NCBI GenBank assembly: GCA_024278215.1
Contig: JAJRTR010000026.1
Location: 1-54,223 of the forward strand
Direction of reading: 5' to 3'
Source of the DNA: a bacterium
GTDB taxonomy: Bacteria > UBP15 > UBA6099 > JAJRTR01
Length of the DNA: 54,223 nucleotides
In this document: one piece after another, positions 13,103-50,243 of the stretch
Layout of the letters: each line of letters starts with the position of its first letter
How positions within the stretch are numbered: the stretch's first letter is position 1
Translations under genes and position numbers: made by a program
The notes under the pieces: model-generated
What the model saw: the letters and a program-made list of their open reading frames with translations, nothing else
Database searches by the model: none
Told to the model about the DNA's origin: nothing

Positions 13103-13663
13103 TTGAAAAGCGAAAAATCCATGAATGAAAGAACGGACAGGCAAAGTGGTTTTACACTGATTGAACTCATGATCGTAATAGCCATTATCGGCATATTGGC
13201 CGCTGTTGCTATTCCCAACTTTCTGAAAGCACGAGACAAAGCACAGTACTCAAGATGTGTTGAAACACTTGGCGGTGTCAAGGTGGCTCTGGAGATGTAC
13301 ATGACCGACTATGGGTTCTACCCGCCGGTCGGTGGTGCATGTTCGGGTGCAGGAACATGGGGAGACGATCTTTGTCCCTACATGATCGCAAACTGCGACG
13401 ATCCCACAGGCGCTGATGCTGGTAAGGTATGTACGAGGCTCGCAGGCAACCCTATCAATACGGGTAACTGCAATACGCCGACATACAGCCCGACCGGTGC
13501 CGCGCCGGTTTACGACTACTCGCTGACGGCAACATCTAATGATAAGTGTAAGATACATATCAGGATGTGTCCAGCCGGATACGAATGGACCAACTACCAG
13601 GTTGCGGTTAATGCTGGTTGTAATCCAGGAGTTGACCCACCTGCGAATCAACCTTGCCCGTAA
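13103..13663 (+). CDS. Type IV pilin-like / GspG-like prepilin
   Basis: This 186-residue prepilin has a 16-residue basic-polar leader ending in Gly (RQSG), followed by mature FTLIELMIVIAIIGILAAVA with Glu at mature position 5. It is exported, cleaved and N-methylated by the peptidase encoded at 14361. After the N-terminal helix, residues such as VALEMYMTDYGFYPP resemble pseudopilin G and major pilins. The C-terminal part is cysteine-rich (at least nine Cys), which suggests disulfides. The start is TTG at 13103, directed by a perfect AGGAGGTGAT 2 bases earlier. The in-frame ATG at 13121 lacks a site. A hairpin terminator follows at 13719, consistent with this being the abundant subunit. Confidence 0.9.
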   Translation: MKSEKSMNERTDRQSGFTLIELMIVIAIIGILAAVAIPNFLKARDKAQYSRCVETLGGVKVALEMYMTDYGFYPPVGGACSGAGTWGDDLCPYMIANCDDPTGADAGKVCTRLAGNPINTGNCNTPTYSPTGAAPVYDYSLTATSNDKCKIHIRMCPAGYEWTNYQVAVNAGCNPGVDPPANQPCP

Positions 13664-13718
13664 GTGGTGTTCGGTTCATGAGTTGAGTGTTTGAAAACTT
13701 ATATAAGCGGAAAATAAA

Positions 13719-13746
13719 GGCAGGGGGATGTTTCCCCTGCCGTCTT
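13719..13746 (+). terminator. Hairpin terminator or attenuator after the first pilin
   Basis: An 8-bp GC-rich stem, GGCAGGGG (13719-13726) and CCCCTGCC (13734-13741), is followed by GTCTTT. The T-tract is short, so termination is probably partial. Its position after the first pilin gene would let that transcript outnumber the downstream minor pilins. Confidence 0.65.
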
Positions 13747-13785
13747 TCGCCTGTATATTTCGAGGCTTTGAGCTGAAGGAGCTTC

Positions 13786-14304
13786 GTGTTCATGGACGTG
13801 CGAAGATTATCATATCGAATTTCACCCGGCTTCCGGTGTGCGTTGTGGCATGCTGGAGTTTTTACGTTCTCCTCAAAGATCATAACATCTGAAAACAACA
13901 ATAAAAAAGGTTTTACTCTTATCGAGTTGATGATAGTTGTCGCGATAATCGCCATTTTGTCAACTATCGGTTCGATGGCTTATATTATCAGCCGCGATAA
14001 AGCGAGAGCTTCCGCCTGCATGATGACAATGGATACGATAAAAGCGGGACTTGAGCAGTATGTAGGCGATTATACATTCTACCCCGACTCGTCTGCGATC
14101 ACATCATTTGCAGATGCGAAGGCTGTGCTCAAGGGCAGTGTGGAATTCAGCACCAACACAACATGCGAGGACCCTCTTATTTATGTCTCCGGCAAGACGA
14201 ATTATAAAATGGAGACGCGGGTTCATTTCACAGGAGCGCCCGGGCTAGGGGTAAAAATTATACTTGAAAATGGCGAAATGCACCAGGAAGATTTGAAGAT
14301 TTGA
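13786..14304 (+). CDS. Second type IV prepilin-like protein
   Basis: The prepilin motif KKG|FTLIELMIVVAIIAILSTI is unmistakable, with Glu at mature position 5. The mature part is about 130 residues and resembles pseudopilin G (RASACMMTMDTIKAGLEQYVGDYTFYP). The start is uncertain. GTG at 13786 lies 5 bases after AAGGA and ATG at 13792 lies 11 bases after it. Either gives a leader of about 40 residues, far longer than the usual 6 to 25, and I see no good later start. The protein is small and has only two or three Cys, unlike the first pilin. It lies after the attenuator-like hairpin and before the peptidase gene. Confidence 0.8.
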   Translation: MFMDVRRLSYRISPGFRCALWHAGVFTFSSKIITSENNNKKGFTLIELMIVVAIIAILSTIGSMAYIISRDKARASACMMTMDTIKAGLEQYVGDYTFYPDSSAITSFADAKAVLKGSVEFSTNTTCEDPLIYVSGKTNYKMETRVHFTGAPGLGVKIILENGEMHQEDLKI

Positions 14305-14360
14305 TGTAAAAAAATGCTGCCGAAGCAGGAAACGACAATAAGTGTAATTATAAAGGAGCA

Positions 14361-15200
14361 GTGAAAGATGAACACAGATGTATTGTCGAAAACAAGGAGG
14401 AATTAACAATACAATTGGATATTTTACCAGACGGTTTCTTTGGAATAATCGGATTGTTCATCGGCAGTTTTTTAAATGTCTGCATTTACCGAATTCCGAG
14501 AAAGGAATCGCTGGTGTGGCCCGGTTCACACTGCCCCGGATGCGGGCGGCCACTAAAAGTCATTGATCTGGTGCCGGTTCTGAGTTACCTGTTCCTGCGG
14601 GGGAAATGCCGCACATGCGGAGCAAGGATTTCCCCGAGGTATCCGATAGTCGAACTGATCACCGGAGCGGCTTTTTTCTGGTCGGCTCAAAGTGCCGGTG
14701 GTGATGTAGCAGTGTTTGCCGGTAATATCCTGCTGCTGTCGGGATTGATTGTGATAACTTTTATTGATCTCGACCACTGGATAATCCCCGACAAGGTGGT
14801 TTTTCCACTTGCCGCGGCGGGTTTTATAATCTCCTGGATAAGGGGGATGCCGGCAGAGGCGGCAATGGGGGCGGCACTGGGATTCTTCGGATTCTATGCC
14901 ATAGCGATAATCGGCACGGTGCTGATGAAGAAAGAAGCGATGGGTGGCGGAGACATTAAACTGGCCGGGATGCTGGGATGTTTCATGGGCTGGAAGTTGC
15001 TGCTGACGGCATTGTTTCTTTCCTTTCTGATCGGTTCGATAGTATCGTTGCCGATGCTGCTGAGGAGGAAACGGGGAGCGAGAGACCCGATTCCGTTCGG
15101 GCCGATGATGGCAGCCGGGGCCGCGCTGGCGTTGATAAAGGGGGGGGAGATTCTCTCCTGGTACGGAGATTTCATCGCGGGAGCAATTCTTCCAAAATGA
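14361..15200 (+). CDS. pilD: Prepilin peptidase / N-methyltransferase (type IV leader peptidase, A24)
   Basis: This is an inner-membrane aspartyl protease that cleaves prepilin leaders and methylates the new N-terminus. It has the family signature GSFLNVCIYRIP after the first membrane helix. A zinc-binding pair of CxxC motifs follows (CPGCGRPL and CRTCG). The two catalytic Asp motifs are FIDLDHWIIPD and GGGDIKL. Seven to eight membrane segments are expected. The start is uncertain. GTG 14361 gives 279 residues but has AAGGAG only 2 bases away. TTG 14415 gives a standard-looking N-terminus (MDILPDGFFG) with AAGGAGG 14 bases upstream. It lies inside the pilin cluster that it should process. Confidence 0.93.
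   Translation: MKDEHRCIVENKEELTIQLDILPDGFFGIIGLFIGSFLNVCIYRIPRKESLVWPGSHCPGCGRPLKVIDLVPVLSYLFLRGKCRTCGARISPRYPIVELITGAAFFWSAQSAGGDVAVFAGNILLLSGLIVITFIDLDHWIIPDKVVFPLAAAGFIISWIRGMPAEAAMGAALGFFGFYAIAIIGTVLMKKEAMGGGDIKLAGMLGCFMGWKLLLTALFLSFLIGSIVSLPMLLRRKRGARDPIPFGPMMAAGAALALIKGGEILSWYGDFIAGAILPK
14368..14406 (+). CDS. Possible 12-codon leader peptide overlapping the pilD start
   Basis: An ATG at 14368 has AAGGAG at ideal spacing (9 bases) and opens a short frame, MNTDVLSKTRRN, ending TAA at 14404-14406. The stop is 8 bases before the alternative TTG start of pilD and overlaps a second SD (AAGGAGG, 14394-14400). It could couple or dampen pilD translation, or be chance. Confidence 0.3.
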   Translation: MNTDVLSKTRRN

Positions 15201-15228
15201 GACAGAAAGTCTCGAATGGAGTAATAAG

Positions 15229-15867
15229 ATGAGAGACATCATGAAAATGACAAAGAGGATTTATGAAAAGAATGAATCGGGAATGACTCTTATAGAAATT
15301 CTGATAGCTATGACTATCCTGATAGTGACCTTGCTGGTTGTTGTCATAGCATTGTCGTCCGGAATGGAACAGTTGAACGAGCAGAGGATCAAGAGGACGG
15401 CTGCGGAATGTGTGCGGGTGGTCATGGAATATATGTCTACGATGCCGCCGGATACAGTATACGGATATGCGGGCGGCAGTCCGAACCCATCAGTAATAAC
15501 AGGCAACTTCGCAGCGGGTGGATTCCTGCAACTCAACGCTTTCGTTAATTCGATAAATCCCGCATGCAGAGACCTCTCGGATATATCAAAGCCGCTGGGT
15601 TCGAAAGTACAGCTCAGATACTCGATATGCCCCGGTTGCATTTCCTATACCGATATTGATCCTGAAAGTTTGATACCGTGGACGACGTGTATGTACAACA
15701 TGGAAGTAATGGTGTCGTGGAACGCGGTAAATTTCGGTGGCAGCAAATTAATCAAGTATAAAAAGAAATTTTTCGGACGATCGAGGGGAAGTTGTGATCC
15801 GGCTGTAAATCCCGACGGCTGCGGATTGGGTTCTATTCCCTATACAGAATACGCATGTACCTATTAA
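15229..15867 (+). CDS. Minor prepilin, PilV-like
   Basis: This 212-residue protein has the prepilin motif ESG|MTLIEILIAMTILIVTLLVVV, with Glu at mature position 5 and a 19-residue leader. The following helix with MEQLNEQRIKRTAAECVRVVMEYMSTMP fits the PilV/type IV pilus modification family. The C-terminal part has many Cys (CPGC, CMYN, CDPAVNPDGCG). It probably primes pilus assembly with the next two products. The TGGAG before the ATG is acceptable. Its last 13 bases lie in a longer frame of the next gene, but the likely start of that gene falls 11 bases beyond this stop. Confidence 0.82.
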   Translation: MRDIMKMTKRIYEKNESGMTLIEILIAMTILIVTLLVVVIALSSGMEQLNEQRIKRTAAECVRVVMEYMSTMPPDTVYGYAGGSPNPSVITGNFAAGGFLQLNAFVNSINPACRDLSDISKPLGSKVQLRYSICPGCISYTDIDPESLIPWTTCMYNMEVMVSWNAVNFGGSKLIKYKKKFFGRSRGSCDPAVNPDGCGLGSIPYTEYACTY

Positions 15868-15878
15868 TGGGAGACACA

Positions 15879-16739
15879 ATGTATAAAATGAGACGAAAAA
15901 TTACAGATCAGAATGGCTTTACGCTCACGGAGTTGATGGTAGTACTTGCCATTATGACGGTTATCACACTGGTGGTGGCAAAAATCATTGTTGCATCAAT
16001 AAATGTGATGATGATGGGGACACGCCAGAATATCGCGCAGAGCAGTGTCGAGTACGTCATCAACAAAATAGCGGAAGATATCAGGCAGGCCGGTAGCGAC
16101 GACTTAAGGCATATTCTTACCGGCTCGAACGGTAGCAGTATAATTTTTGTCAGGTACCAGCAGAACCTCGATGCATACTCGGACAGCGGCGACCGCAATT
16201 TCGATCACGCCTGTTACTCCTCGGTGCTGCCTTCTGGTACCGATGCTTATGACACGAATTACAGGCCCGGCTACATCAGGGGAGGGACCGGTTCCGGTGA
16301 TCCCAGTAACCCTGGCTGCAAAGTTTATCCGCTGACCGATACTTTTTCGGATGTCAGGAGCTTCAGGATAGAATTCTGCCGGCCCGGCGAGGACAGCCCT
16401 GGTGATTACGATTGCACGACCAACAAAATCGACAATGCCGGTCTCGGAGTGCAGCCACCCAATCTGCCCGACCTGACCGACACGGCAGCCTGTGTGTGGA
16501 TGGTGAAAATTTCAGCTACCTACTCCCGCAGATATGTCGCGAAAAGCGAAGACATAGACCCATCATATTACAACAACACAGTATACAGGTATCAGACGGC
16601 CGTTGTGCTTCGGAATCCATATACGATGTCTCTTTTTCAGGATCAGGATAAGGATGGATATGTTGATTGCTGTGATAAAGACTTCAGGACGGATATAGGG
16701 AACGATATCGATTGGTGTCCACCCCCGAACAGTATGTAA
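15879..16739 (+). CDS. Minor prepilin, PilW-like
   Basis: This 286-residue protein has the prepilin motif QNG|FTLTELMVVLAIMTVITLVVA, again with Glu at mature position 5. After the transmembrane helix, QSSVEYVINKIAEDIRQAGSD resembles the PilW/GspJ pattern. I choose ATG 15879 because GGGAG sits 5 bases upstream; an in-frame ATG at 15855 overlaps the previous gene. The C-terminus contains a short DQDKDGYVDCCDKD segment, an Asp-rich possible Ca2+-binding loop. It would be part of a minor-pilin initiation complex with the PilV-like and PilX-like proteins on either side. Confidence 0.82.
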   Translation: MYKMRRKITDQNGFTLTELMVVLAIMTVITLVVAKIIVASINVMMMGTRQNIAQSSVEYVINKIAEDIRQAGSDDLRHILTGSNGSSIIFVRYQQNLDAYSDSGDRNFDHACYSSVLPSGTDAYDTNYRPGYIRGGTGSGDPSNPGCKVYPLTDTFSDVRSFRIEFCRPGEDSPGDYDCTTNKIDNAGLGVQPPNLPDLTDTAACVWMVKISATYSRRYVAKSEDIDPSYYNNTVYRYQTAVVLRNPYTMSLFQDQDKDGYVDCCDKDFRTDIGNDIDWCPPPNSM

Positions 16740-36569: not shown

Positions 36570-37889
36570 ATGAAATACAGGCAGGCGAATGAGTATCTGG
36601 ACAATTTCTCGAACTACGAGAAGAAGGCGCATCTGCTGAAGCCGCGGTTCAGTCTCGATGCGATAGGGAAACTGCTCGAAAAGCTGGGCAGTCCGGAAAA
36701 AAAGTATCCTTCGGTGCATGTGGCCGGTACCGTGGGCAAGGGTTCCGTGTGCCATATAGTAGAAAGCGTGCTGCGGGCGACCGGTTGCAAAACTGCGCTC
36801 TATTCGTCGCCGCACCTTGTGGATATCAGGGAAAGAATAGCGATATGCGGCAGAATAATAACGAAAAAGGATTTCACTGAATCTGTCGAAAAAATCAGGG
36901 TGATCGTTGGCAATGTTTTCGATGAGCTGACATATTTTGAAGTGCTTACGGCAATTGCGTTCGATTATTTTGCCGACCGCGATGTCGACATAGCAGTCGT
37001 GGAGGTGGGGCTTGGGGGCAGGCTCGACGCCACGAATATGGTGCCGCCGTTTGTGGGCGCGATAACGACGCTGGGATGGGACCACGTGGCTGTGCTGGGG
37101 CCGACACTTGCGGATATCGCGGGCGAAAAAGCGGGTATCGTCAAGCGTGGGGCGACTATTGTCTCGTCGCCGCAACACTGGCGCGCGCGAAAAGTTATCG
37201 AAGAAACCTGCCGCGACAAGCAGGCACGCTTTATTGCAGCCGTCCCCGGGAATACAGTGAAACACATTGGAACGGAGCAGGGAAGGGTGGTCTACGAGAT
37301 TCTTTCAGGCGCTGCGGAGGGACGATGTGTACTACTGCCGCTCGCCGGTGATTTTCAGTCGATAAATCTCGCTACGGCATTGGAAATCATAGGCGCGGTT
37401 TCCGACGATGACAGGTTCGATATATCGGCAGACGATATAGTTGCCGGAGTTGAAAATGTAGTCTTTCCCGGTCGTATGGAGTATGTGAAATTACCGTGCG
37501 CTCCGGTCGAGGCGATTATCGACGGCGCGCACAACGCTCCCGCGGCGGACGCGCTTGCCGGTTCGCTTGTCGCGAGATACGGAAAAGGCGCAAAAGTTGT
37601 TTTTGTCATAGGTATGCTGCTCGACAAAGATGCGGACACAGTGATGAAAAGACTTTGCAGGGCCGGAAGCGACGTGGTGATTACCGAACTCGACTTCGAC
37701 AGGGCGACGCCGGCGAGGGAACTTGCGAAAACAGCTAAAAAATATTTCGACAGGGTCCTGGTCGCTGAAGATATGGCGGGGGCGATCAAGAAAGCGGTTG
37801 GGCTATCCGGTGGTCATGACGCGATTTGCATTACCGGCTCGCTGTATGCAGTCGCCGAAGCAAAAAACGCGCTGGCAAACCGGAAATAA
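36570..37889 (+). CDS. folC: Bifunctional dihydrofolate synthase / folylpolyglutamate synthase
   Basis: This 439-residue Mur-ligase family enzyme adds glutamate to folates. The P-loop is GTVGKGS (residues 53-59), followed by SSPHLVDIRERI, the second motif FEVLTAIAFDYFA, VVEVGLGGRLDATN and GWDHVAVLGPTLADIAGEKAGI. The C-terminal domain begins near PGRMEYVKL and contains IDGAHNAPAADALA. All are canonical. It is an ordinary housekeeping gene transcribed alone. The intergenic region downstream holds a possible small RNA and its terminator. Nothing is unusual in the protein. Confidence 0.95.
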   Translation: MKYRQANEYLDNFSNYEKKAHLLKPRFSLDAIGKLLEKLGSPEKKYPSVHVAGTVGKGSVCHIVESVLRATGCKTALYSSPHLVDIRERIAICGRIITKKDFTESVEKIRVIVGNVFDELTYFEVLTAIAFDYFADRDVDIAVVEVGLGGRLDATNMVPPFVGAITTLGWDHVAVLGPTLADIAGEKAGIVKRGATIVSSPQHWRARKVIEETCRDKQARFIAAVPGNTVKHIGTEQGRVVYEILSGAAEGRCVLLPLAGDFQSINLATALEIIGAVSDDDRFDISADDIVAGVENVVFPGRMEYVKLPCAPVEAIIDGAHNAPAADALAGSLVARYGKGAKVVFVIGMLLDKDADTVMKRLCRAGSDVVITELDFDRATPARELAKTAKKYFDRVLVAEDMAGAIKKAVGLSGGHDAICITGSLYAVAEAKNALANRK

Positions 37890-37941: not shown

Positions 37942-37955
37942 GTGATGAATATCAC
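37942..37955 (+). promoter_or_regulatory. CRP/FNR-like palindrome
   Basis: GTGATGAATATCAC matches the TGTGA-N6-TCACA pattern of CRP-family regulators in its core (GTGA-N6-TCAC), with a final A as well. It is centred near -65 of the promoter at 37979, a workable activation distance. A single match of this size can arise by chance in AT-rich DNA. Confidence 0.35.
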
Positions 37956-37978
37956 AATAATAAATAATTAATAAACTA

Positions 37979-38012
37979 TTGACACTTATCACTATAAAGT
38001 GTAATATTACAC
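37979..38012 (+). promoter_or_regulatory. Strong promoter with palindromic -10 region
   Basis: A perfect TTGACA (37979-37984) is followed after 17 bases by TAATAT (38002-38007). The -10 box is embedded in the exact 14-bp palindrome GTGTAATATTACAC (37999-38012). The spacer also carries CACTTAT and ATAAAGTG, an imperfect inverted repeat. The layout suggests a tightly regulated promoter. Confidence 0.6.
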
Positions 38013-38090
38013 CTGACAGGTTTATTTTCTCTCTCTATGGTGTTGTAATGAGCCCTCGACTTCAACTCAAAAAGCAAGGGCTCTTTTTTT
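38013..38090 (+). ncRNA. Candidate small regulatory RNA between folC and the lipoate gene
   Basis: Between the promoter at 37979 and the terminator at 38050-38090 lie about 75 transcribed bases. No frame with a ribosome site was found. The interval contains a small ACCTG/CAGGT hairpin and a pyrimidine-rich single-stranded stretch (TTTATTTTCTCTCTCTATGG), then the terminator stem. This is the usual form of a trans-acting sRNA, but no sequence family is recognised. The terminator could also belong to folC. Confidence 0.45.
38050..38090 (+). terminator. Rho-independent terminator
   Basis: GAGCCCT (38050-38056) pairs with AGGGCTC (38077-38083), followed by seven T (38084-38090). It may end the candidate sRNA and also folC, whose stop is 160 bases upstream. 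Confidence 0.85.
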
Positions 38091-38133
38091 CTGCACTGAA
38101 TTCCTTAAATATACAAATAACATAGTAAAATCA

Positions 38134-38901
38134 TCATATATTCATTGTTTTTCTACGATAATTCCAGTCGGGATTCGAGTATCTGTACGAGATGAATGTC
38201 GATGTGAGAGCAATAATATTTTCGTTCAAATTATAATCCGGTAATTCTTCGCCGGACCATCTGTGGAATCCTTTTTCAAGCGCGGCTTCAGCCTCATCAA
38301 ATCCTACATCTCTGTCGAGCAATTCATCTGCGGCAGTAATACGGTCCGCCGCGTGCGCGAGTTTTTTCCGCTCAAGTTTCGTTTCCGGTATTTTCAGGAG
38401 CGAGAACATTTTCTTTTTATCGGCACTCAGCAATATGGTGCCGTGCTGGAGCACGCTTCCCCTGCGTCGCACCTGTGCGTTGCCGCTGATTTTTTTGCCC
38501 TGCACGATGATGTCGTTTATGGGGGCGAACTCCGCTTCGAGTCCCAGGAGTTCAAGTGCAAATATAATAGCGCGGGTTGTGAAACGGAAAGAATCTGCGA
38601 TTCCGGCACCGATGAATTTTTCAGGGGCGATCAGGCTGTAGGTTATTTCGTTGTCGTGTATGACAGCGCCGCCGCCGGTCAATCTACGGATAATGTCGAT
38701 GCCGGACGCGCGGCATCGTGCGATGTCGATAACATCTTCTATTTTTTCGGAATAGCCGATAGTCACGGCGGGCGGGTTCCAGCCATAGAGGCGGACGATG
38801 GGCGGGCAGCCGCCCGCGATGTGAGTTTCGAGCAGCGCTTCGTCCAGTGCCATATTGTATGGGCCGGGATTGAGGCCTGTTTTTAATATGTGAAATTGCA
38901 T
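38134..38901 (-). CDS. Lipoate--protein ligase A-like protein (BPL/LplA catalytic domain only)
   Basis: This 255-residue member of the biotin/lipoyl ligase fold has the motif RRLTGGGAVIHDNEITYSL and the lysine motif GKKISGNAQVRRRGSVLQHG, which carries the acyl-adenylate-binding Lys. Length fits the catalytic domain alone; the C-terminal accessory domain of E. coli LplA is absent. It also lacks the Cys expected just before GKK in LipM-type octanoyltransferases (here APINDIIVQGKK), so it may act as a ligase with a separate accessory protein or use another mechanism. It lies downstream of lipA on the same strand and presumably supplies octanoyl or lipoyl groups for LipA. Confidence 0.8.
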   Translation of the reverse strand: MQFHILKTGLNPGPYNMALDEALLETHIAGGCPPIVRLYGWNPPAVTIGYSEKIEDVIDIARCRASGIDIIRRLTGGGAVIHDNEITYSLIAPEKFIGAGIADSFRFTTRAIIFALELLGLEAEFAPINDIIVQGKKISGNAQVRRRGSVLQHGTILLSADKKKMFSLLKIPETKLERKKLAHAADRITAADELLDRDVGFDEAEAALEKGFHRWSGEELPDYNLNENIIALTSTFISYRYSNPDWNYRRKTMNI

Positions 38902-39930: not shown

Positions 39931-42900
39931 TCATTCGGAGAGAATGAGAGTGCAGGCGCTGTGGGCGCGCAGGTAATAGCCTTTCCATGACAGCAACTCG
40001 CCGCCGATGGGAACGGGTGAGTATTTACGTCCGTCATACATGTAGATAGCGGGATCGAGTATGCGGCTGTCGGCTGCCTGACCAAGGGTGAGTGTCGCGC
40101 CATCGCATTCGAGTTGGATGTTATCGCTCCATGCTATCGACTTGGCGTATGGATTCCCGATGAGGTTCCAGCCGGCGGCGAGTGGGACGTTTATTGCGAT
40201 GCCGTCCTGCGCGGGAATACCCTCGATATCTATTTCGGTGTTGTCGGACACGTAGACCCAGTAGCCAAAACCGGTTTCTATGTCTGCGTCGGCTGCTGCG
40301 TAGTAGTTCCCGTCGTAGAACTGGTAGACGTTCATAAGGGGAAGATCGTCGCCGAGCTGTTCGAGAGCCGAGGTTACGAGCGGATCGACCGGTACGGAGA
40401 TGAGGTTCCAGCCGGGCTGGAGAGTGTGTGTGACGACGAGCGGGTCGGAGAAAAGGGCGAGCACCTCAATTCTGAAATTATCGGCGGAAACATCGCCGCC
40501 GGCTGGCCGGTAGGTATAGCTGCACTGCGCGGCCATGTTTATGCTGGTGGCGGTGTTGATGTGAACGAGAGTGAAAGAATAGCGCTCGACAGGTATCGAG
40601 CCACAATCCCAGCGCAGAGTGACAGTGCCGGAATCGGCGTTAGTGACGACATTGAAAAGCCATTTTTCGACATTGTATGAATCAGCCGGTGGCCGGATGT
40701 CGTTGGCGTATCTGCCCGCGAGGCGGTGCCAGTCGTCGTGATCGAAATAGAGAGAGATATAGCCTCTGGCGGGTGATTTGTGGGGTTCGGGAAAGTCGAG
40801 GGGATCGAAGTCACGAGCCGCCTCGCTCGACGCGCCGAAGTAGTTGTCCATATCGGCGAAGCCCCCTGCGTAAGCTGAAATCCTTATGTTGTACTCGAAA
40901 GACCTGCGCAGCAGCCGCGACGATATTCGCATCAGTGATGCTGCCGATGGATCGAAAACGAGATCGACATCCTTATATGCCCTGATGCTGTAGCCCGTTT
41001 CAATCTCCATGCTGTCCGAGGCATCGTGCTGTGTCCATGATTTCGCGGTGGTGTCGTACGACGTTATCTTGTCGGCGATGAGGCCAAGGTCCACGGCATC
41101 GGCGAGATTGTATGTGGTGCCGTTGTAGCGAACCTGCACCTGGCCCCACGGGAAATTCTTCATAAAGGGGGTTCCGACCTGATTCCAGCCTTCATATATC
41201 CGCATCGTATATTCTGAAGTCGTATCGGCAACCGATCCGCTGTAGGAATACTTGAGGTCTTCGTTATAAGTCTTTATCCAGAACGCTTCGCCTGCCTTGA
41301 GACTCGAAGGATATTCGTATCTGCCGAGGTACTGGTCATAGTCCGACTTGTTGGGATTCCACCTGTAGACTTTATAAATGTTTTTGGTGCCGAACATGGA
41401 AAGGGGGTCGGAAGGCGACGGATTTATGGGTGTCGACAGCAGGTGCCAGTAGTGGTAATCGAGAGTGCCGCTGACGGTCGGCGTGTTGTCTATGTTGATG
41501 GTGACAGTGGTTTCGGACGAGTTTGAATTTGTGTCGACGGCGCTGAGTTTGAGAGTGTAGAGACCGGAGAGTGCGGAGGAATCCCAGGAATAAATGGTTG
41601 TGTTGTTGATATTGAAAGTGCCCGAGGCGAAGGCGAGCCAGATTGAAGGGTTCGTGCCCGCGCCGTAGGAGAGAGTCCACGAGTCGAGAGAGAAATCGTC
41701 GATGGTGCCGGAGATATTGAAAGAGCCGGCGACAGTTTCGCCGCTAGCCGGGTATGTAATCGAGACGACCGGAACGCCGGTGTCGGTCAGGACGAATTCA
41801 TCCTCTGAAGTTGACCAATCGCCGCGCATGAAAGTCGAGTCGACCGCACGGACATTCCAGTAATAATGGCCGCCGGGAGGATTGATAGTCAGAGAAGTGC
41901 CGGTAACAAGGTTACCGATGCCCGCTGCGAGGTAGGGTGACGCGCCCGTGGCGGGGAAGGTGCCGCAGTAGAGTTCACAACCGCCCTGTGTGGTGCCGAT
42001 GCGTACGTCGTAAGTTATAAGATCGGTGTCGGTAGTTTCGTCGTCGGAGGCGGCTGACCAATCGAGAGTAACGGCAACCTTTCCGGAAGTGACGATATCC
42101 GGTTCGTCTGACAGGACGATAGTGGAAGGCGGATTATTAGTGAAGTTGAGATTATTTATCCATATTGTATTTGGTTCGCCCTCGCCGGTGTTGAGAGGAT
42201 CGCCGCTGTTGGCTTCGATCAAATCCTGATCGCCGTCGTTGTCGACATCGGCAGCGTGAATAGAGAGCGTGAAAGTGTCGCCGAGCAGCTGGCTTGTGTC
42301 GACAAAGGTGCCTGCGCCGTCGTTGAGCCAGACTTTATCCGGCTGCCCCTCGGTGTTGCCTGCGATGAAATCGTAATCGCCGTCGCCTTCGACATCAATC
42401 CGGCACAGTGCGATGGTTTTTCGCGAGCCGAGTTGCTGACCGGTGTCGGAGAAGGAGCCTGCGCCGTCGTTGAGCCAGACAGTATTGGGTTCGTCGTCGT
42501 AATTGCCCGCGATATAGTCGAGGTCTCTGTCGCCGTCGATGTCCATGAGAAGCCCGGAGAGAGTCGGTTCGTTGCCGAGCGACTGTCCCGAATCGGAGAA
42601 AACGCCGTTGCCGTCGTTGAGCCATACGACATCCGGCTGGTCCCTGTTGGACTCGACGAAATCGGCGTCGCCGTCGCCGTCGAGGTCGCCCGCGGAGATG
42701 TGCCATGTAGTACTGTTGCCGAGTTCCTGTGTAACAGTCGCGAATATGCCGTTTCCGTCGTTTATCCAGAGGCGGTCGGGCTCGTTCCTGTTGCCGCAGA
42801 TGAAGTCCATGTCGCCGTCGCCGTCGATGTCTGCGATGTCCATGCCGAAAGTGTAAAAGCTGCCGAGCGACTGCATACTGTCGGTGAAGACGGCGTTGCC

Positions 42901-45099
42901 GTCGTTGAGCCAGATATTATGGTCCTGGACATTGCCCGCGACGAAATCGAGGTCGCCGTCGCCGTCGACATCGAGAGCGAAAGCTATGCGGGTCCATGTT
43001 TTTTCAAAACGTGCGGTGAGCAACTGTCCCGAATCGGAAAAAGAGCCGGAACCGTTGTTGAGCCATATCCTGCTGGGCTCGCCGAAGTACACGCCTTCGA
43101 TAAAGTCGAGGTCGCCGTCGCTGTCGAGGTCGGCCGCCGGAGTTGAATAAGTACCGTAGCTGCCGAGCGACTGACCAGAATCGGTGAATACCGGCATGAC
43201 AACGAAAGAATCCTCTGCGCTCCACGCGCTGCGTTTATAAGTAGGATCGACGGTTCTGGCAGACCAGAAATAAGTGCCTGCCGTCAGGTCGGATTTCCAG
43301 CTATTGGAGAAACCTACTGTGCCGGGTCCGGCGATGAGGCCGGGGCTGTCGCCCTCGGAAGGGAAAAAACCGCAATAGACTTCGCAGCCACCGCTGGACG
43401 TGCCGATGCGAATGTCGTAGGTCATAAGGTCTGTATCCAGTGTTTCCGGGTCTGAGCCGGGGGCCCAGTTTAGAATGGTGCCGGGGCGCTCGAATGTCCA
43501 TACATCCGGTGCGGCAACTGGCGTTGGCGCGGACGGTGCGCTGTTGGCGCTGTCGATATCATTGAAATATATGCGGTTGCCGTCGATACTATTGCCTTCG
43601 ATGAAATCTAGGTCGCCGTCGCCGTCGAGGTCGGCAGCGGATACGGAAACCGTATCTTCCGCGCCGATGAACTCGGCGGTGCCTTCGAAAAAGCCATTTC
43701 CGTCGTTGAGATAAATCCTGTCCGGCGCGCCGCCGCCGTTTCCGACGATGAAATCGTAATCGCCGTCGGCGTCGAGGTCGGCGGCGAAAAGGCTCGTGCT
43801 GTTTGCCGAGCCGAGCCGCTGGCCTGTGTCGGTGAAGTTGCCGTCGCCGTCGTTTACCCATACGTAATTCGGCTCGCTGTCGTAATCGGCTTCCATGAAA
43901 TCCGAGTCACCGTCGGCGTCGATGTCGGCAGCGAATACAAAAAGAGTGGAATTCGTACCGAGGCTCTGTCCCGAATCGGAGAAAGTCCCGCGACCGTTGT
44001 TGAGCCATACGCGGTTACCCTGAAGCCTGTTGCCCGCGATAAAATCGGGGTCGCCGTCGAGATCGACATCGACGGAGTGAATGGAATAAGTCGTGTATGA
44101 GCCGAGTTCCTGGCCGCTGTCGGAGAAATTGCCGTCGCCGTCGTTGATCCAGACTTTGTTCGCGCCGCCATTGTTCGCTGTATCTTTGTTCGCGTCGATG
44201 AAGTCGATATCGCCGTCGACATCCACATCGACGGCGTCGATGCTGAAGGTTGTCAGGTCGCCGAGGCGCTGTCCCGAATCGGTGAAGCCGAGAGTTCCGC
44301 TGTTGAGGCTCCTGCGTTCGGCGGACGGTGCAGATATAAAGTTGTTGATCCATACATAGTTCGAAGAAATGTTTCCGGCGATGATGTCCATGTCGCCGTC
44401 TCCGTCGACATCGGCGGCGTAAGAAGACCGTGTGCTTTCGCTTCCGAGCGATTGCGACAGGGCAAAAGAGCCGGTGCCGTCATTGGTCCATATAGTGTTT
44501 GCCTGGCTATTGTAATTGCTTGCGATAAAATCGTAGTCGCCGTCAGCGTCGAGGTCCGCCACGTGGATGTCGATAGTCTCCATATCGCTCAATGACAAAC
44601 CGGCGTCGGAATAGTTATAGACGGGTTTAACATCGAAGCTGTCCTCAGCGCTCCACGCGCTGCGTCTGAAAGTCGCGTCCACTGTGCGCACCGACCAGTA
44701 ATAAGAGCCTTCAGGCAAGTCGATAATATGAGAAATCCCGCTTCCGGAATTGCCGGGTCCTGTTCCGGACCAGTAGACAGCGCCGGTCGCGGTGAAGCTG
44801 CCGCAGAATATTTCGCAACCCTCGCTTGTCGTGCCTATGCGTATGTCATAAGTCAGCAGGTCGGAATCGGTGGTTTCCGCGTCGCTACCGGCAGACCATG
44901 TGAGCACGGCGTTGGGCCTGTCGAGAGTCCACAGTTCGTGAACGGCGGTGAGCAGTGGCGCCGCCGGTACCGTGTTCGTGTTCGACAGGTTGTAAATCCA
45001 GACACTGTCGGCAGCGCCGTAGTTGCCCTGTATAAAATCGACATCGTTGTCGTTATCCAGATCGGCGGCCGCAATAGTCGTAGTATCGGAATCGCCCAT
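39931..45099 (-). CDS. C-terminal part of the giant FG-GAP propeller protein (after the in-frame stop)
   Basis: This frame (1722 residues from the ATG at 45099) is in the same phase as the ORF ending at 46021. Codons 46020-45100 stay open and encode blades 1 to 6 of module 4, so the ATG is only the first Met after the stop and has no ribosome site. It encodes the last blade of module 4 and the following Fn3-like domain, all of modules 5 and 6, then about 620 C-terminal residues: an Ig-like region (PVVSITYPASGETVAGSFNI), two WNQVGTP/WHLLSTP-type repeats, a strand-rich middle, and two more repeats (GWNLISVPVDP, GWNLIGNPYAK). No anchor or sorting signal is recognised. Confidence 0.7.
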   Translation of the reverse strand: MGDSDTTTIAAADLDNDNDVDFIQGNYGAADSVWIYNLSNTNTVPAAPLLTAVHELWTLDRPNAVLTWSAGSDAETTDSDLLTYDIRIGTTSEGCEIFCGSFTATGAVYWSGTGPGNSGSGISHIIDLPEGSYYWSVRTVDATFRRSAWSAEDSFDVKPVYNYSDAGLSLSDMETIDIHVADLDADGDYDFIASNYNSQANTIWTNDGTGSFALSQSLGSESTRSSYAADVDGDGDMDIIAGNISSNYVWINNFISAPSAERRSLNSGTLGFTDSGQRLGDLTTFSIDAVDVDVDGDIDFIDANKDTANNGGANKVWINDGDGNFSDSGQELGSYTTYSIHSVDVDLDGDPDFIAGNRLQGNRVWLNNGRGTFSDSGQSLGTNSTLFVFAADIDADGDSDFMEADYDSEPNYVWVNDGDGNFTDTGQRLGSANSTSLFAADLDADGDYDFIVGNGGGAPDRIYLNDGNGFFEGTAEFIGAEDTVSVSAADLDGDGDLDFIEGNSIDGNRIYFNDIDSANSAPSAPTPVAAPDVWTFERPGTILNWAPGSDPETLDTDLMTYDIRIGTSSGGCEVYCGFFPSEGDSPGLIAGPGTVGFSNSWKSDLTAGTYFWSARTVDPTYKRSAWSAEDSFVVMPVFTDSGQSLGSYGTYSTPAADLDSDGDLDFIEGVYFGEPSRIWLNNGSGSFSDSGQLLTARFEKTWTRIAFALDVDGDGDLDFVAGNVQDHNIWLNDGNAVFTDSMQSLGSFYTFGMDIADIDGDGDMDFICGNRNEPDRLWINDGNGIFATVTQELGNSTTWHISAGDLDGDGDADFVESNRDQPDVVWLNDGNGVFSDSGQSLGNEPTLSGLLMDIDGDRDLDYIAGNYDDEPNTVWLNDGAGSFSDTGQQLGSRKTIALCRIDVEGDGDYDFIAGNTEGQPDKVWLNDGAGTFVDTSQLLGDTFTLSIHAADVDNDGDQDLIEANSGDPLNTGEGEPNTIWINNLNFTNNPPSTIVLSDEPDIVTSGKVAVTLDWSAASDDETTDTDLITYDVRIGTTQGGCELYCGTFPATGASPYLAAGIGNLVTGTSLTINPPGGHYYWNVRAVDSTFMRGDWSTSEDEFVLTDTGVPVVSITYPASGETVAGSFNISGTIDDFSLDSWTLSYGAGTNPSIWLAFASGTFNINNTTIYSWDSSALSGLYTLKLSAVDTNSNSSETTVTINIDNTPTVSGTLDYHYWHLLSTPINPSPSDPLSMFGTKNIYKVYRWNPNKSDYDQYLGRYEYPSSLKAGEAFWIKTYNEDLKYSYSGSVADTTSEYTMRIYEGWNQVGTPFMKNFPWGQVQVRYNGTTYNLADAVDLGLIADKITSYDTTAKSWTQHDASDSMEIETGYSIRAYKDVDLVFDPSAASLMRISSRLLRRSFEYNIRISAYAGGFADMDNYFGASSEAARDFDPLDFPEPHKSPARGYISLYFDHDDWHRLAGRYANDIRPPADSYNVEKWLFNVVTNADSGTVTLRWDCGSIPVERYSFTLVHINTATSINMAAQCSYTYRPAGGDVSADNFRIEVLALFSDPLVVTHTLQPGWNLISVPVDPLVTSALEQLGDDLPLMNVYQFYDGNYYAAADADIETGFGYWVYVSDNTEIDIEGIPAQDGIAINVPLAAGWNLIGNPYAKSIAWSDNIQLECDGATLTLGQAADSRILDPAIYMYDGRKYSPVPIGGELLSWKGYYLRAHSACTLILSE

Positions 45100-48000
45100 C
45101 GTCAGTCCTGAATCAGTGAATACGCCCGCGCCGTCATTTTTCCAGTACTTATCCGCGCCGCCGCCGTTGTTGCCTTCGATAAAGTCATAGTCGCCATCGC
45201 CGTCCGCGTCGAACGCAAAGACGGAATAGGTCTTATCCGACCCGAGCGACTGCCCTGAATCCGAAAAAGAGCCCGCGCCGTCGTTTGTCCATATCGCGGT
45301 CGCCTGGTTGTAGTTGCCTTCGATGAAATCAGCATCGCCGTCGCCGTCAACATCGACGGCATAGATATCGAAAGTCGTATTCGAGCCGAGGCTCTCGCCG
45401 CTGTCTGTGAAAACACCGTCGCTGTCGTTGAGCAGGATTGCGACAGGTTCGTCCCTGTTGCCCTCGATCAGGTCGGTGTCGCCGTCGCCGTCAACATCCG
45501 TGAGGTCGATCGAGTATGTCGTGCCGCTTCCGACATCCCGGCCCGAATCGGTGAATGTTGCGCTTCCGTCATTAAGCCACAGGGTGCCGGCGCCGTCCCT
45601 GTTGCTGTCGAGAAGGTCGATGTCGCCGTCGGCGTCGAGGTCCGCGGCCTTTATCGAGTATGTCGTATTGTTGCCGAGGGATTGTCCTGAATCAGTGAAT
45701 GAACCGGAATTGTCGTTCAGCCATATAATGTTGCCGCCGACAGCGCCGGAAACGAGGTCGATGTCGCCGTCGCTGTCAAGGTCGGCAGCGACGACGGAGC
45801 GCGTCTGCGACGAACCGAGAGACTGCGAGAGGGCGAAAGCGCCGCTGCCGTCGTTTATCCAGACGTCGTCTGCCCCGGATGAGTAGTTTCCTTCGAAGAA
45901 ATCAATGTCGCCGTCGCTGTCAAGATCGGCAGTGACGATGGAAAGCGTATCGCCGGAACCGAGCAGCGCGCCGGAGTCTGAAAAATCGGTTTTAATCGTG
46001 AAATCGTCTACAGCGCTCCACTAGCTTCGTGTATAAGTTGCATCTACAGTGCGGACAGACCAGTAATAGGTGTCTGCGCCGAGCGTAACTGTGTAGGAGG
46101 TCGTCGCGCCGGTGACGCCTGGTGCTGAAGCAGCGAAGGGCGATTCACCGTATGAAGGGAAATATCCGCAGAATACTTCGCAGCCGCCGCTTGTCGTGCC
46201 AAGCCGGATGTCATAAGCCAGAAGGTCGGTGTCTGTAGTTTCCGCATCCGAACCGACCGACCATTCGAGCGTGACACCTGTGTAGGACGAGCCGGAGACT
46301 ACTATGTCGGGTTCGTCAATGGCGGCAGGCGCGACGGGTGCCGTGAGCGCCGGGTTTATGTTGTTGATCCATATCCTGTTGCCTTCTCCGTTGTTGTTCC
46401 CTTCGATGATGTCGAGGTCGTAGTCGCCGTCGATGTCCGCGGCAAATACGGAATAAGTCTGGTATGAACCGATGACGAGCCCGTAATCGGTGAAAGTTCC
46501 GGTGCCGTTATTCAGCCAGATCGAGTCGGATTGGCCTTCGCCGTTGCCGGAAATGAAATCGATGTCGCCGTCGCCGTCGATGTCGCCGCCGTAAACGGAG
46601 AAAGTTTTATTCGAGGCGAGCGTCTGTCCCGAGTCGGAGAAGTTGCCCATGCCGTCGTTGAGCCATATTCGGTTTGCCTGGTTGTAGTTGCCCTCGACGA
46701 AGTCCGGTGCCCCGTCGCCGTTGGCATCGAAAGCGAAAATCGAGAAGGTCGAATTCGAGGCGAGCGACTGCCCCGAATCGGAGAAGCTGCCCGCGCCGTC
46801 GTTGAGCCACACGATATCGGCGGCGTCGCGCACACCCTCGATCATGTCCGGGTCGCCGTCGCCGTCGATGTCTGCGAGTGATACGGAATAAGTTTTCGCG
46901 GTGCCGAGGCTCTGTCCGCTGTCGAAAAATGAGCCGTCGCCGTCATTTAGCCAAGCTGTTATCGCATCATCCTTGTTTCCGTTAATGATGTCGATGTCGC
47001 CGTCGCTGTCTATATCGACCGCCTTGATCGAGAATGTTACGTGTGAGTTGGAGCCGATCTGTTCACCTGTATCCGTGAATGATGCGCTGCCGTCATTTGC
47101 CCAGATGTTATTGTAGCCGACGATGCCGACGATTATGTCGAGATCGCCGTCCATGTCCGTGTCGGCAACGGTGACGGAGCGCGAATCGCTGCTTCCGAAA
47201 TTCTGCGTCGAAGCGAAAGTGCCCGTTCCGTCGTTGAGCCATACTGTATCCTGCTGCCCGGAACTGTTCGCATCAACAAGATCGAAATCGCCGTCACCGT
47301 CGAAGTCCGCGGAATACGCTTCCGCCGTGTTTTCCGAACCGAACGACTGTCCCGAATCGGTGAAATCCGCGGAGACAGTGAATGAATCTTCGGCGCTCCA
47401 CGCGCTTCTCATAAAACCCGGGTCGACAGTTCTGACCGACCAGTAATATGTGCCTGACCACAGTTCGATATCATGGGAAGTCGTCGAGCCCGTGTTGCCC
47501 GGTCCCGACGCACCCCACGGCACAGTTCCCGAGTATGGGAAGGTTCCGCAATAAACCTCGCAGCCTTCGCTTGTCGTACCGATGCGTATGTCATAAGAAA
47601 GGAGATCGGCGTCAGTAGTTTCAATGTCGGAACCGGCAGACCATTCGAGGTCGATGATGTAGAAAGAAGCGCCGGGGATATCGAAGTCGGGCTCGGCTGT
47701 GAGCAGAGGAGCGGTGGGTGCCGTATTCGTGTAATTGAGATTGTTTTGCCATATTCTGTTCGCCTCTCCCGAGTTGGCTTCGACGAGGTCGAGGTCGTCG
47801 TCGGAGTCAAGGGAGACAGCGATGAGCATGTTGGTCGAATAAGAGCCGAGCGCGTAGCCGGGGTCGGAAAAAACGCCCGCGCCGTCGTTCTCCCATATAA
47901 CATCTGACTGGCCTTCGCCATTGCCGGCGAAGAAATCGTAATCGCCGTCGCCGTCGTAGTCGGCCGGAAAAACAGAAAAAGTTTTTTGCGAGCCTAACGA

Positions 48001-50121
48001 CTGCCCGGAATCGGTAAAAACGCCAGCACCGTCGTTGAGCCACACGGCGTTTCCTTCGTTGTAGTTGCCCTCGATGAAGTCGTCGTTGCCGTCGCCGTCG
48101 ACATCCACTGCGAAAACGGTAAAAGTTGTGTTCGATCCGAGCGACTGACCCGAGTCGGAGAAGTTGCCGTCACCATCGTTGCTCCAGACAATATTCGCCG
48201 CTCCGCGCACGCCCTCGATCATGTCCGGGTCGCCGTCGTCGTCTACGTCCGCAAGGCTGATGGAATATGTTTTTGCTGTTCCGAGACTCTGACCGCTGTC
48301 CGAAAATGAACCCGCGCCGTCATTGAGCCAGACCACCATCGCGTCGTCTTTATTGCCGTTGACGATGTCGAAGTCACCATCGCTGTCCACATCCACCGCT
48401 CTGATAGCAAACGTAACATGTCCGTTGGAGCCGATCTGCGCCCCCGTATCCGTGAATGACGCGCCGCCGTCGTTCGACCAGATTTTATTGTAGCCTACGA
48501 TCCCTACGACTATGTCCAGGTCGCCGTCCATATCGGTGTCGGCCACGTCGACTGAACGCGAGTCCTCACTTCCGAAATCCTGCGCCGAAGTGAAAGTACC
48601 AGCGCCGTCGTTCAGCCATACAGTATCCTGTTGTCCCGAACTGTTCACTTCGACAATATCGAAGTCGCCATCCGCGTCGAGATCTGCGGAATATACCGCC
48701 GCCGTATTCCCGGAACCCAGTGTTTGTCCCGTATCCGAGAACCCTTTCACAACATTGAATGAATCCTCGGTACTCCAGGCACTTCGTTTATAAGTCGGGT
48801 CGGTCGTGCGCACAGACCAGTAATAAGTACCTTCCGAAAGTGAAATTACTTGAGAGACGCGGCTCCCGGAATTGCCGGGTCCGTTGCCGGAAGGAGACGT
48901 GCCGGAGGAAGGAAAACTACCGCAGAAGACATCGCAGGCACCGCTGGATGTGCCGATGCGGATGTCATAAGTCAGAAGGTCGGCATTTGATGTTTCAGCA
49001 TCCGAGGCGGTGGTCCACTCGAGTGTGACGGCTATTGTCGAACCAGGCAGGATAACGTCCGGTTCCGCGGTTAGAGAAGGCGCGGTCGGATTAGTATTCG
49101 GGTGATTCGTGTCGTTCATCCAGATAATATTCGACTGGCCTTCGGTATTTGCGGCTATTATGTCCAGGTCACCGCTGTTGTCGACGTCGGCAACTGCGAT
49201 TCCGAGTGTCTTTTTATTGCCGAGTGTCAATGTCGAATCCGTGAATGAGCCCGTACCGTCGTTCAGCCAGATAATGTTTGCAGCGTTGTAAACGCCCTCG
49301 ATAAAATCGCAGTCACCGTCGCCGTCCATGTCCGCAGCGGAAGATGAATATGTTTTCGCGGTGCCGAGCGATTGGCCTGTGTCTGTGAAAGTGCCTGTGC
49401 CGTCGTTTGTCCATATTCTATTGCCTTCGTTGTAGTTCCCCTCGATGAAATCAACGCTGCCGTCACCGTCCACATCGCAGGTGGCCATCGTGAAAAGTGT
49501 ACTCGTGCCGAGCGACTGTCCGCTGTCGGTGAAAGTCGCGGCACCGTCATTTATCCATATAATATTTCCCGCGCCTCTGATGCCTTCGATGATGTCTATA
49601 TCGCCGTCGCCGTCCACGTCCGCGTTTTTTACACTGTAGGTATTCGCCGCTGGCATCGTGTTCCCCGAGTCGGACATCGCGCCGGTTCCGTCGTTGAGCC
49701 ACACTTTGTTCGTGTCGTTTCTGTTGCCCTCGACAAGGTCTATATCACCGTCTCCGTCAAAGTCGGAAAGCGACAAGGAATATGAAAGATATGAGGCCGA
49801 ACCGATGCTCTGGCCCGAGTCGGTGAAAGACGCCGTGCCGTCATTTGTCCATATCCGGTTGTAGCCCTCGTCGCCGAAAACAAGATCGATGTCGCCGTCG
49901 TTGTCCAGGTCGGCTGCCGCGATTGATCTCGTTTTTTCCGCGCCCATGGACTGCGTGATGCTGAAACTACCTGCGCCGTCATTCAGCCACGCATTGTTCG
50001 CCTGTCCGCCGCCGAGATTTCCGTCGATAAAGTCAATATCGCCGTCGCCGTCGAGATCGACCGCGAACGCCGCGACACTGTCGTCCGTTCCGAGCGCCTG
50101 CCCGGAATCGCTGAATGAGAA
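41790..50121 (-). repeat. Six-fold coding super-repeat of ~1.36-1.43 kb
   Basis: Approximate module limits (high to low coordinates) are 50121-48745, 48745-47370, 47370-45985, 45985-44625, 44625-43195 and 43195-41790. Each encodes seven FG-GAP/VCBS blades of about 46 to 50 residues with DxDGDGDxDFIEGN-type calcium loops, then one Fn3-like domain with a conserved Cys pair (GGCEVFCG) ending YYWSVRTVD...RSAWS.EDSF. Forty-two blades could be counted. Modules 2 and 3 are the most alike. Confidence 0.85.
46021..46023 (-). other. In-frame TAG interrupting the propeller gene
   Basis: The codons read CGA AGC TAG TGG AGC GCT, where sister modules read AGC GCG TGG AGC (Arg-Ser-Ala-Trp-Ser) or AGT GCC TGG. 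The stop thus replaces one conserved Ala codon by an adjacent two-base change (GC to TA), with no frameshift. The next base after TAG is T, not a known strong readthrough context. Confidence 0.9.
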
Positions 50122-50187
50122 TGCCGCCGCAGCCGGTTTCGACGCCGCTATCATAAATAGGATTACTATTACCGATAACCTTTTCAT
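46021..50187 (-). CDS. N-terminal part of giant secreted FG-GAP/VCBS beta-propeller protein
   Basis: These 1388 residues start with a signal peptide (MKRLSVIVILFMIAASKPAAAA), cleaved before FSFSDSGQ. I start at ATG 50187, because ATG 50217 would place polar residues before the signal. Three complete seven-blade modules follow, the first two each closed by its Fn3-like domain. Blades have the pattern FTDSGQSLGs.kTySv.AaDvDGDGDiDfIEGN.n..N.iWlNDGtG. Each Asp-rich loop resembles integrin-alpha/VCBS calcium sites, so the protein should be extracellular and Ca2+-dependent. The third Fn3-like domain is cut by TAG after RTVDATYTRS. It is the third gene of an operon with the FecR-domain and barrel genes. 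An adhesin or glycan-binding role is inference. Confidence 0.85.
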   Translation of the reverse strand: MKRLSVIVILFMIAASKPAAAAFSFSDSGQALGTDDSVAAFAVDLDGDGDIDFIDGNLGGGQANNAWLNDGAGSFSITQSMGAEKTRSIAAADLDNDGDIDLVFGDEGYNRIWTNDGTASFTDSGQSIGSASYLSYSLSLSDFDGDGDIDLVEGNRNDTNKVWLNDGTGAMSDSGNTMPAANTYSVKNADVDGDGDIDIIEGIRGAGNIIWINDGAATFTDSGQSLGTSTLFTMATCDVDGDGSVDFIEGNYNEGNRIWTNDGTGTFTDTGQSLGTAKTYSSSAADMDGDGDCDFIEGVYNAANIIWLNDGTGSFTDSTLTLGNKKTLGIAVADVDNSGDLDIIAANTEGQSNIIWMNDTNHPNTNPTAPSLTAEPDVILPGSTIAVTLEWTTASDAETSNADLLTYDIRIGTSSGACDVFCGSFPSSGTSPSGNGPGNSGSRVSQVISLSEGTYYWSVRTTDPTYKRSAWSTEDSFNVVKGFSDTGQTLGSGNTAAVYSADLDADGDFDIVEVNSSGQQDTVWLNDGAGTFTSAQDFGSEDSRSVDVADTDMDGDLDIVVGIVGYNKIWSNDGGASFTDTGAQIGSNGHVTFAIRAVDVDSDGDFDIVNGNKDDAMVVWLNDGAGSFSDSGQSLGTAKTYSISLADVDDDGDPDMIEGVRGAANIVWSNDGDGNFSDSGQSLGSNTTFTVFAVDVDGDGNDDFIEGNYNEGNAVWLNDGAGVFTDSGQSLGSQKTFSVFPADYDGDGDYDFFAGNGEGQSDVIWENDGAGVFSDPGYALGSYSTNMLIAVSLDSDDDLDLVEANSGEANRIWQNNLNYTNTAPTAPLLTAEPDFDIPGASFYIIDLEWSAGSDIETTDADLLSYDIRIGTTSEGCEVYCGTFPYSGTVPWGASGPGNTGSTTSHDIELWSGTYYWSVRTVDPGFMRSAWSAEDSFTVSADFTDSGQSFGSENTAEAYSADFDGDGDFDLVDANSSGQQDTVWLNDGTGTFASTQNFGSSDSRSVTVADTDMDGDLDIIVGIVGYNNIWANDGSASFTDTGEQIGSNSHVTFSIKAVDIDSDGDIDIINGNKDDAITAWLNDGDGSFFDSGQSLGTAKTYSVSLADIDGDGDPDMIEGVRDAADIVWLNDGAGSFSDSGQSLASNSTFSIFAFDANGDGAPDFVEGNYNQANRIWLNDGMGNFSDSGQTLASNKTFSVYGGDIDGDGDIDFISGNGEGQSDSIWLNNGTGTFTDYGLVIGSYQTYSVFAADIDGDYDLDIIEGNNNGEGNRIWINNINPALTAPVAPAAIDEPDIVVSGSSYTGVTLEWSVGSDAETTDTDLLAYDIRLGTTSGGCEVFCGYFPSYGESPFAASAPGVTGATTSYTVTLGADTYYWSVRTVDATYTRS

Positions 50188-50243
50188 TAACTCACCATCG
50201 TTTCCGTTCTGCCGCATTTCCGCTCAGTCGAAAGATATTCTGG

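Follow-up and report, generated by a model that had tools for sequence, protein, structure and literature searches.

The window (the whole 54,223-nucleotide stretch of DNA analyzed here) very likely contains, at positions 38014–38090, an independent and conserved small-RNA gene, as judged by sequence comparison. The RNA appears to be new and restricted to its order, as far as our searches reach, and ordinary in kind. Comparison with four relatives shows that it has its own predicted sigma-70 promoter, a start near 38014, a terminator hairpin presenting a conserved word of 9–11 nucleotides in its loop, and a U tail (Table 1), with the independent promoter and the intrinsic terminator with its U tail kept in all five copies.

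Table 1. Predicted small RNA gene and associated elements, in window coordinates.
Feature	Position	Strand	Remarks
Small RNA gene, 77 nt	38014–38090	+	Predicted start 38014–38015; model match 83.9 bits
−35 hexamer TTGACA	37979–37984	+	Same in all five RNA-carrying genomes
−10 hexamer TAATAT	38002–38007	+	Relatives: TAAAAT, TACACT, TACACT, TACACT
5′ single-stranded segment GGTTTAT...TGGTGTTG	38019–38045	+	First putative pairing segment
Terminator hairpin, stem GAGCCCT/AGGGCTC, 20-nt loop	38050–38083	+	Six pairs common to all five sequences never vary
GACTTCAACTC in terminator loop	38058–38068	+	Second putative pairing segment; aligned GACTTCAAC is the same in all five
3′ T tract, 7 T	38084–38090	+	8–9 T in relatives

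The initial annotation had picked out this locus as a compact transcription unit without a gene, bounded by a near-consensus promoter (TTGACA-N17-TAATAT) and a terminator some 75 bases after the start. Both elements are present. The spacer between the hexamers is 17 bases in the window and 17–18 bases across the five carriers, whose −10 boxes read TAATAT once, TAAAAT once, and TACACT three times; the terminator has seven T after the stem GAGCCCT/AGGGCTC, the last of them at 38090. The hairpin at 38050–38083 was missed by an automatic terminator scan because its 20-base loop exceeds the maximum of 8 bases that the scan accepts. Promoter-like sites are frequent here (10 in 3 kb versus 3.9 ± 2.5 in shuffles) and the 77-mer folds no more stably than its shuffled versions (z −0.15), so the features of a single sequence prove nothing by themselves. 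The anatomy is nonetheless real and not a product of chance, because the promoter hexamers, the RNA, and the terminator recur in four relatives, and the proposed unit, which has a promoter and a terminator to itself and lacks a conserved ORF, thus holds up as a predicted small RNA.

The same annotation had placed the −10 box within a perfect palindrome and a CRP/FNR-like site upstream. Both are there, but their proposed regulatory roles did not survive comparison. The 14-bp palindrome GTGTAATATTACAC (37999–38012) does cover the −10 box; we rejected regulation through it because such palindromes occur at chance frequency (4 in the window versus ~3.3 expected) and because it is absent from the upstream DNA of the relatives. 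The CRP/FNR-like site GTGATGAATATCAC lies at 37942–37955, its centre ~66 bases before the start, and no similar site was found in the upstream DNA of the four relatives. In addition, the window's genome (G000, rated 95% complete) encodes no protein matching PF13545, the CRP-type helix-turn-helix, above the cut-off; two proteins matched below it, and by sequence we take these to be of the Rrf2 and DtxR/MntR types. CRP/FNR control was rejected on these two grounds. The pattern GTGATNNNNATCAC showed a weak excess in G000 (8 sites versus 1 for a control pattern), with 5 of the 8 outside ORFs of at least 90 amino acids, and some dimeric regulator other than a CRP-type protein may use the GTGAT-N4-ATCAC motif. 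The five inverted repeats of this form outside ORFs are in loci L105, L106, L107, and L109 (near position 1501) and at 37942–37955 of the window.

Our sample of the order comprised seven genomes (G000 and six others), the remaining relatives being no closer than the same domain. A search of 193 genomes with the DNA of the whole region returned four matches with E < 1e-4 outside the window's own genome, all from the same order: G005 (6.9e-11), G002 (3.8e-5), G003, and G001. All four start at window position 38014 or 38015 and finish inside or at the terminator, such that the limits of homology coincide with the predicted transcript start and terminator. The other matches were short, and 116 of the 193 genomes had a listed match at E up to 1. 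We also built a model of the RNA from three sequences (window, G005, and G002, leaving out G001 and G003) and searched 290 genomes with it, which recovered the RNA once each in G000, G001, G002, G003, and G005 at 75–112 bits; among the scores listed for the other 285 genomes, the best was 29 bits. The RNA was found, in sum, in five of the seven genomes of the order, with a significant score in none of the 283 other genomes searched. Six weak model matches in unrelated genomes (23–29 bits; E 0.11–0.88 per genome, 0.006–0.06 in a smaller search) were taken as chance. In a laxer model search of the seven order genomes, G004 (67% complete) had no match and G006 (88% complete) reached only 23 bits; because both assemblies are incomplete and also had no match to the TIM-barrel protein that neighbours the RNA elsewhere, we do not count them as lacking the RNA. 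Weak matches in G002, G003, G005, and G006 from this search (19–23 bits, E 1.6–9.4) were likewise attributed to chance.

A pattern scan of the genome collection, which demands exact words and could therefore let diverged relatives escape, gave seven stretches, of which four were true (JAKQPS010000098.1, JAGUYV010000461.1, MWCD01000014.1, and JAKLIR010000236.1); the other three (two from Methanosarcina and one from Bacilli) had no match to the model and were discarded. Two pattern matches in viral contigs (13.6 bits) and two Pantoea matches among plasmids (E = 1) were dismissed as chance, a second pattern had no match in the viral contigs, and the RNA was found in none of the phages searched. 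Among the carriers is bacterium ADurb.Bin236 (locus L077), for which PMC5424206 reports a SepCysS operon and an unusual homologue of SepRS that carries an editing domain. None of the 4227 Rfam families matched the window at or above its gathering threshold (sub-threshold matches on the stretch were all <21 bits), and the four homologous loci had no Rfam match at E up to 1. Titles and opening lines of abstracts among the papers listed for the loop word, on either strand, held nothing on this RNA, and those retrieved for Hfq small RNAs in uncultivated genomes held nothing on this order.

Aligned pairwise by section, the RNA is 86–88% identical between the window and its relatives (z 15.7–20.6); of the two 80-base flanks, the one upstream of the −35 box gives z −0.8 to 0.5 and the one downstream of the terminator z −1.4 to 1.4, both at the level of shuffles. 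The promoter section scored z 2.1–4.3 against the window and only 0.1 for the relative pair G005/G002. Two of the carriers, G001 and G003, are sisters with almost the same sequence (99% identity in the RNA) and should count as one. The flanking proteins are far diverged between the window's genome and the relatives (41% identity for the lipoate ligase and 54% for the TIM-barrel protein). Comparison shows strong purifying selection on the predicted RNA across three families of the order.

Within the alignment of the five RNAs, 54 columns are identical throughout, and these include GAC-GGTTTAT, TGGTGTTG, GAGCCC, GACTTCAAC, TCA, and AAGGGCTC. At the RNA level the conserved segments are GGUUUAU...UGGUGUUG in the 5′ half and GACUUCAAC in the terminator loop. 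The pyrimidine tract between GGTTTAT and TGGTGTTG, which varies in length and composition and has four extra bases in the window, is less conserved than UGGUGUUG and GACUUCAAC. A covariance search had been suggested as a check for conserved secondary structure in related genomes; the hairpin is indeed kept, but the terminator stem shows no covariation among the five sequences, because the six shared pairs are invariant. By the same comparison the predicted 5′ half is without conserved structure. Inspection by eye also revealed that GUUG in the 5′ half could pair with CAAC in the loop as a pseudoknot, both words being invariant.

Regarding its mode of action, we think it probable, at a confidence well below that for the gene itself, that the RNA acts by base pairing with the help of Hfq. 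It would be transcribed from its own promoter and released with a U tail, Hfq would hold it through this tail and the U-rich 5′ half, and the RNA would then pair in trans with mRNAs through UGGUGUUG/GGUUUAU and/or the loop GACUUCAAC, thereby changing their translation or stability. A U tail of 7–9 residues and a U-rich 5′ half fit Hfq binding, and we favour an Hfq-assisted antisense RNA because of this fit and because the window's genome codes for Hfq (PF17209, 93.7 bits). Hfq was above the cut-off in G000, G001, G005, and G006, and was not found in G002 (78% complete), G003 (92% complete), or G004; it was therefore detected in three of the five RNA carriers, the assemblies of the other two (G002 and G003) being incomplete.

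We searched for targets by running RNAduplex between the RNA and 268 starts predicted within 357,789 bases, or ~8% of the genome, the starts having been called by a simple script such that some are surely wrong. The initial annotation had suggested that the pyrimidine-rich middle could pair with G-rich ribosome sites, a suggestion that gained no support from these results: the 5′ half had a mean of −14.53 at the 268 starts, versus −14.60 ± 0.40 for 100 shuffles. Nor did the loop show excess affinity (−7.43, versus −7.80 ± 0.39 for shuffles), and the one place in G000 with an exact complement of the full 11-nucleotide loop word is the RNA locus itself. The best start (L128, 8304–8606) scored −29.1 kcal/mol and looked bipartite, the only match of this kind at a G000 start; among 30 loci of the 40 places listed, no homologue with such a site came to light. 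Sites of the form CAACACCA-n-AAACC fell in no gene shared between genomes (30 of 40 places examined). Target prediction with the 5′ half therefore came up empty, with neither an excess at the 268 starts nor a shared site.

These null results, together with conservation that lies in sequence rather than in pairing and the failure to find Hfq in two carriers, would suit an RNA whose partner is a protein (a regulator or polymerase that it sequesters), with the loop GACUUCAAC and the 5′ words serving as protein contacts instead of antisense seeds. We regard such an RNA as unlikely, since neither the sequence nor its folds have a repeated motif of the CsrB kind or a long helix of the 6S kind and there is no Rfam match at the gathering threshold. 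Within the antisense reading, a more elaborate picture can be offered tentatively: the RNA may represent an undescribed small-RNA family of one uncultured order with a pair of conserved antisense segments, one lying exposed in its own terminator loop, where a single hairpin would serve both target pairing and transcript release, and with the possible GUUG/CAAC pseudoknot toggling the RNA between closed and open forms.

The genomic surroundings bear on whether the transcript is independent. In the window the RNA is preceded by a FolC-type gene with Mur ligase domains (36570–37889, + strand) and followed by a convergent lipoate-ligase-type gene (38134–38901, − strand; LplA-B_cat). The preceding gene is a xylose-isomerase-like TIM-barrel gene in G005, G003, and G001 (assigned by Pfam in G005 and by homology in the other two) and an NHL-repeat gene in G002; the TIM-barrel homologue of the window's genome is on another contig (C8). 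The next gene is convergent in four of the five genomes (window, G005, G003, and G002); G001 alone has it on the same strand. The RNA is therefore not tied to one neighbour, as its neighbours differ among the three families, and the differing upstream genes and the convergent next gene in four of five genomes argue for a stand-alone gene and not a leader. Elsewhere in the window are two very large proteins of repeated blocks (39931–45099 and 46021–50217) with recurring phrases such as DGDGDIDFI, presumably VCBS/FG-GAP-like by eye, and a series of type IV pilin-like proteins bearing FTLIELM-like signals at their N termini, together with a prepilin-peptidase-like protein (13103–16739, by eye).

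The RNA begins 124 bases beyond the stop codon of folC and runs in the same direction, so it could in principle be just the 3′-terminal part of the folC mRNA, or a bare terminator without a transcript of its own; we consider this improbable, since the promoter is conserved along with the RNA and in the relatives the RNA does not follow folC. A cis-acting leader or attenuator of a neighbouring gene is highly improbable: a tocopherol-cyclase-like gene does lie downstream on the same strand in G001, a few hundred bases off, but in the remaining four genomes the gene that follows is convergent, and no neighbour is common across families. That the locus is a tiny protein-coding gene is barely credible, despite a 48-amino-acid ORF with a TTG start that crosses the RNA in the window (37979–38125) and a distance from GACTTCAAC to GGGCTC of 20, 23, 26, or 29, always in multiples-of-three steps (four distinct values, perhaps by chance), because the ORF begins at the −35 box and extends beyond the terminator, the two preceding word distances are 16 or 20 and then 17, 19, or 20, and the frames near the loop begin and end differently between genomes (by eye, from GAC, the G002 loop soon reaches a TAA stop, and the window has TGA two codons before). 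From one genome to another, the distances separating the first conserved words change by 1, 2, 3, and 4 bases, so no frame is kept through the RNA.

An independent small-RNA gene at this locus resembles the Hfq-dependent trans-encoded sRNAs of enterobacteria, as a general class, in being intergenic and 50–100 nucleotides long with its own sigma-70 promoter, single-stranded conserved segments, an intrinsic terminator with at least U7, and Hfq in the genome. It differs from them in that it has no sequence relation to any Rfam family and was found in an uncultured order only, that a conserved word lies in a terminator loop of at least 20 nucleotides whereas their seed is usually 5′, and that Hfq binding is here putative, with Hfq undetected in two carriers. 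Using a word in a loop as a putative antisense seed recalls the C-rich-loop sRNAs of Gram-positive bacteria, of the RsaE type, although GACUUCAAC does not belong to the C-rich UCCC type and the likeness is not one of demonstrated homology.

Small RNAs of uncultured lineages have been little mapped. This RNA was picked by its anatomy alone and then confirmed by the conservation of promoter and predicted transcript in differing neighbourhoods, and it offers a concrete handle for studying post-transcriptional control in an order from which the carriers named here are metagenome-assembled genomes.
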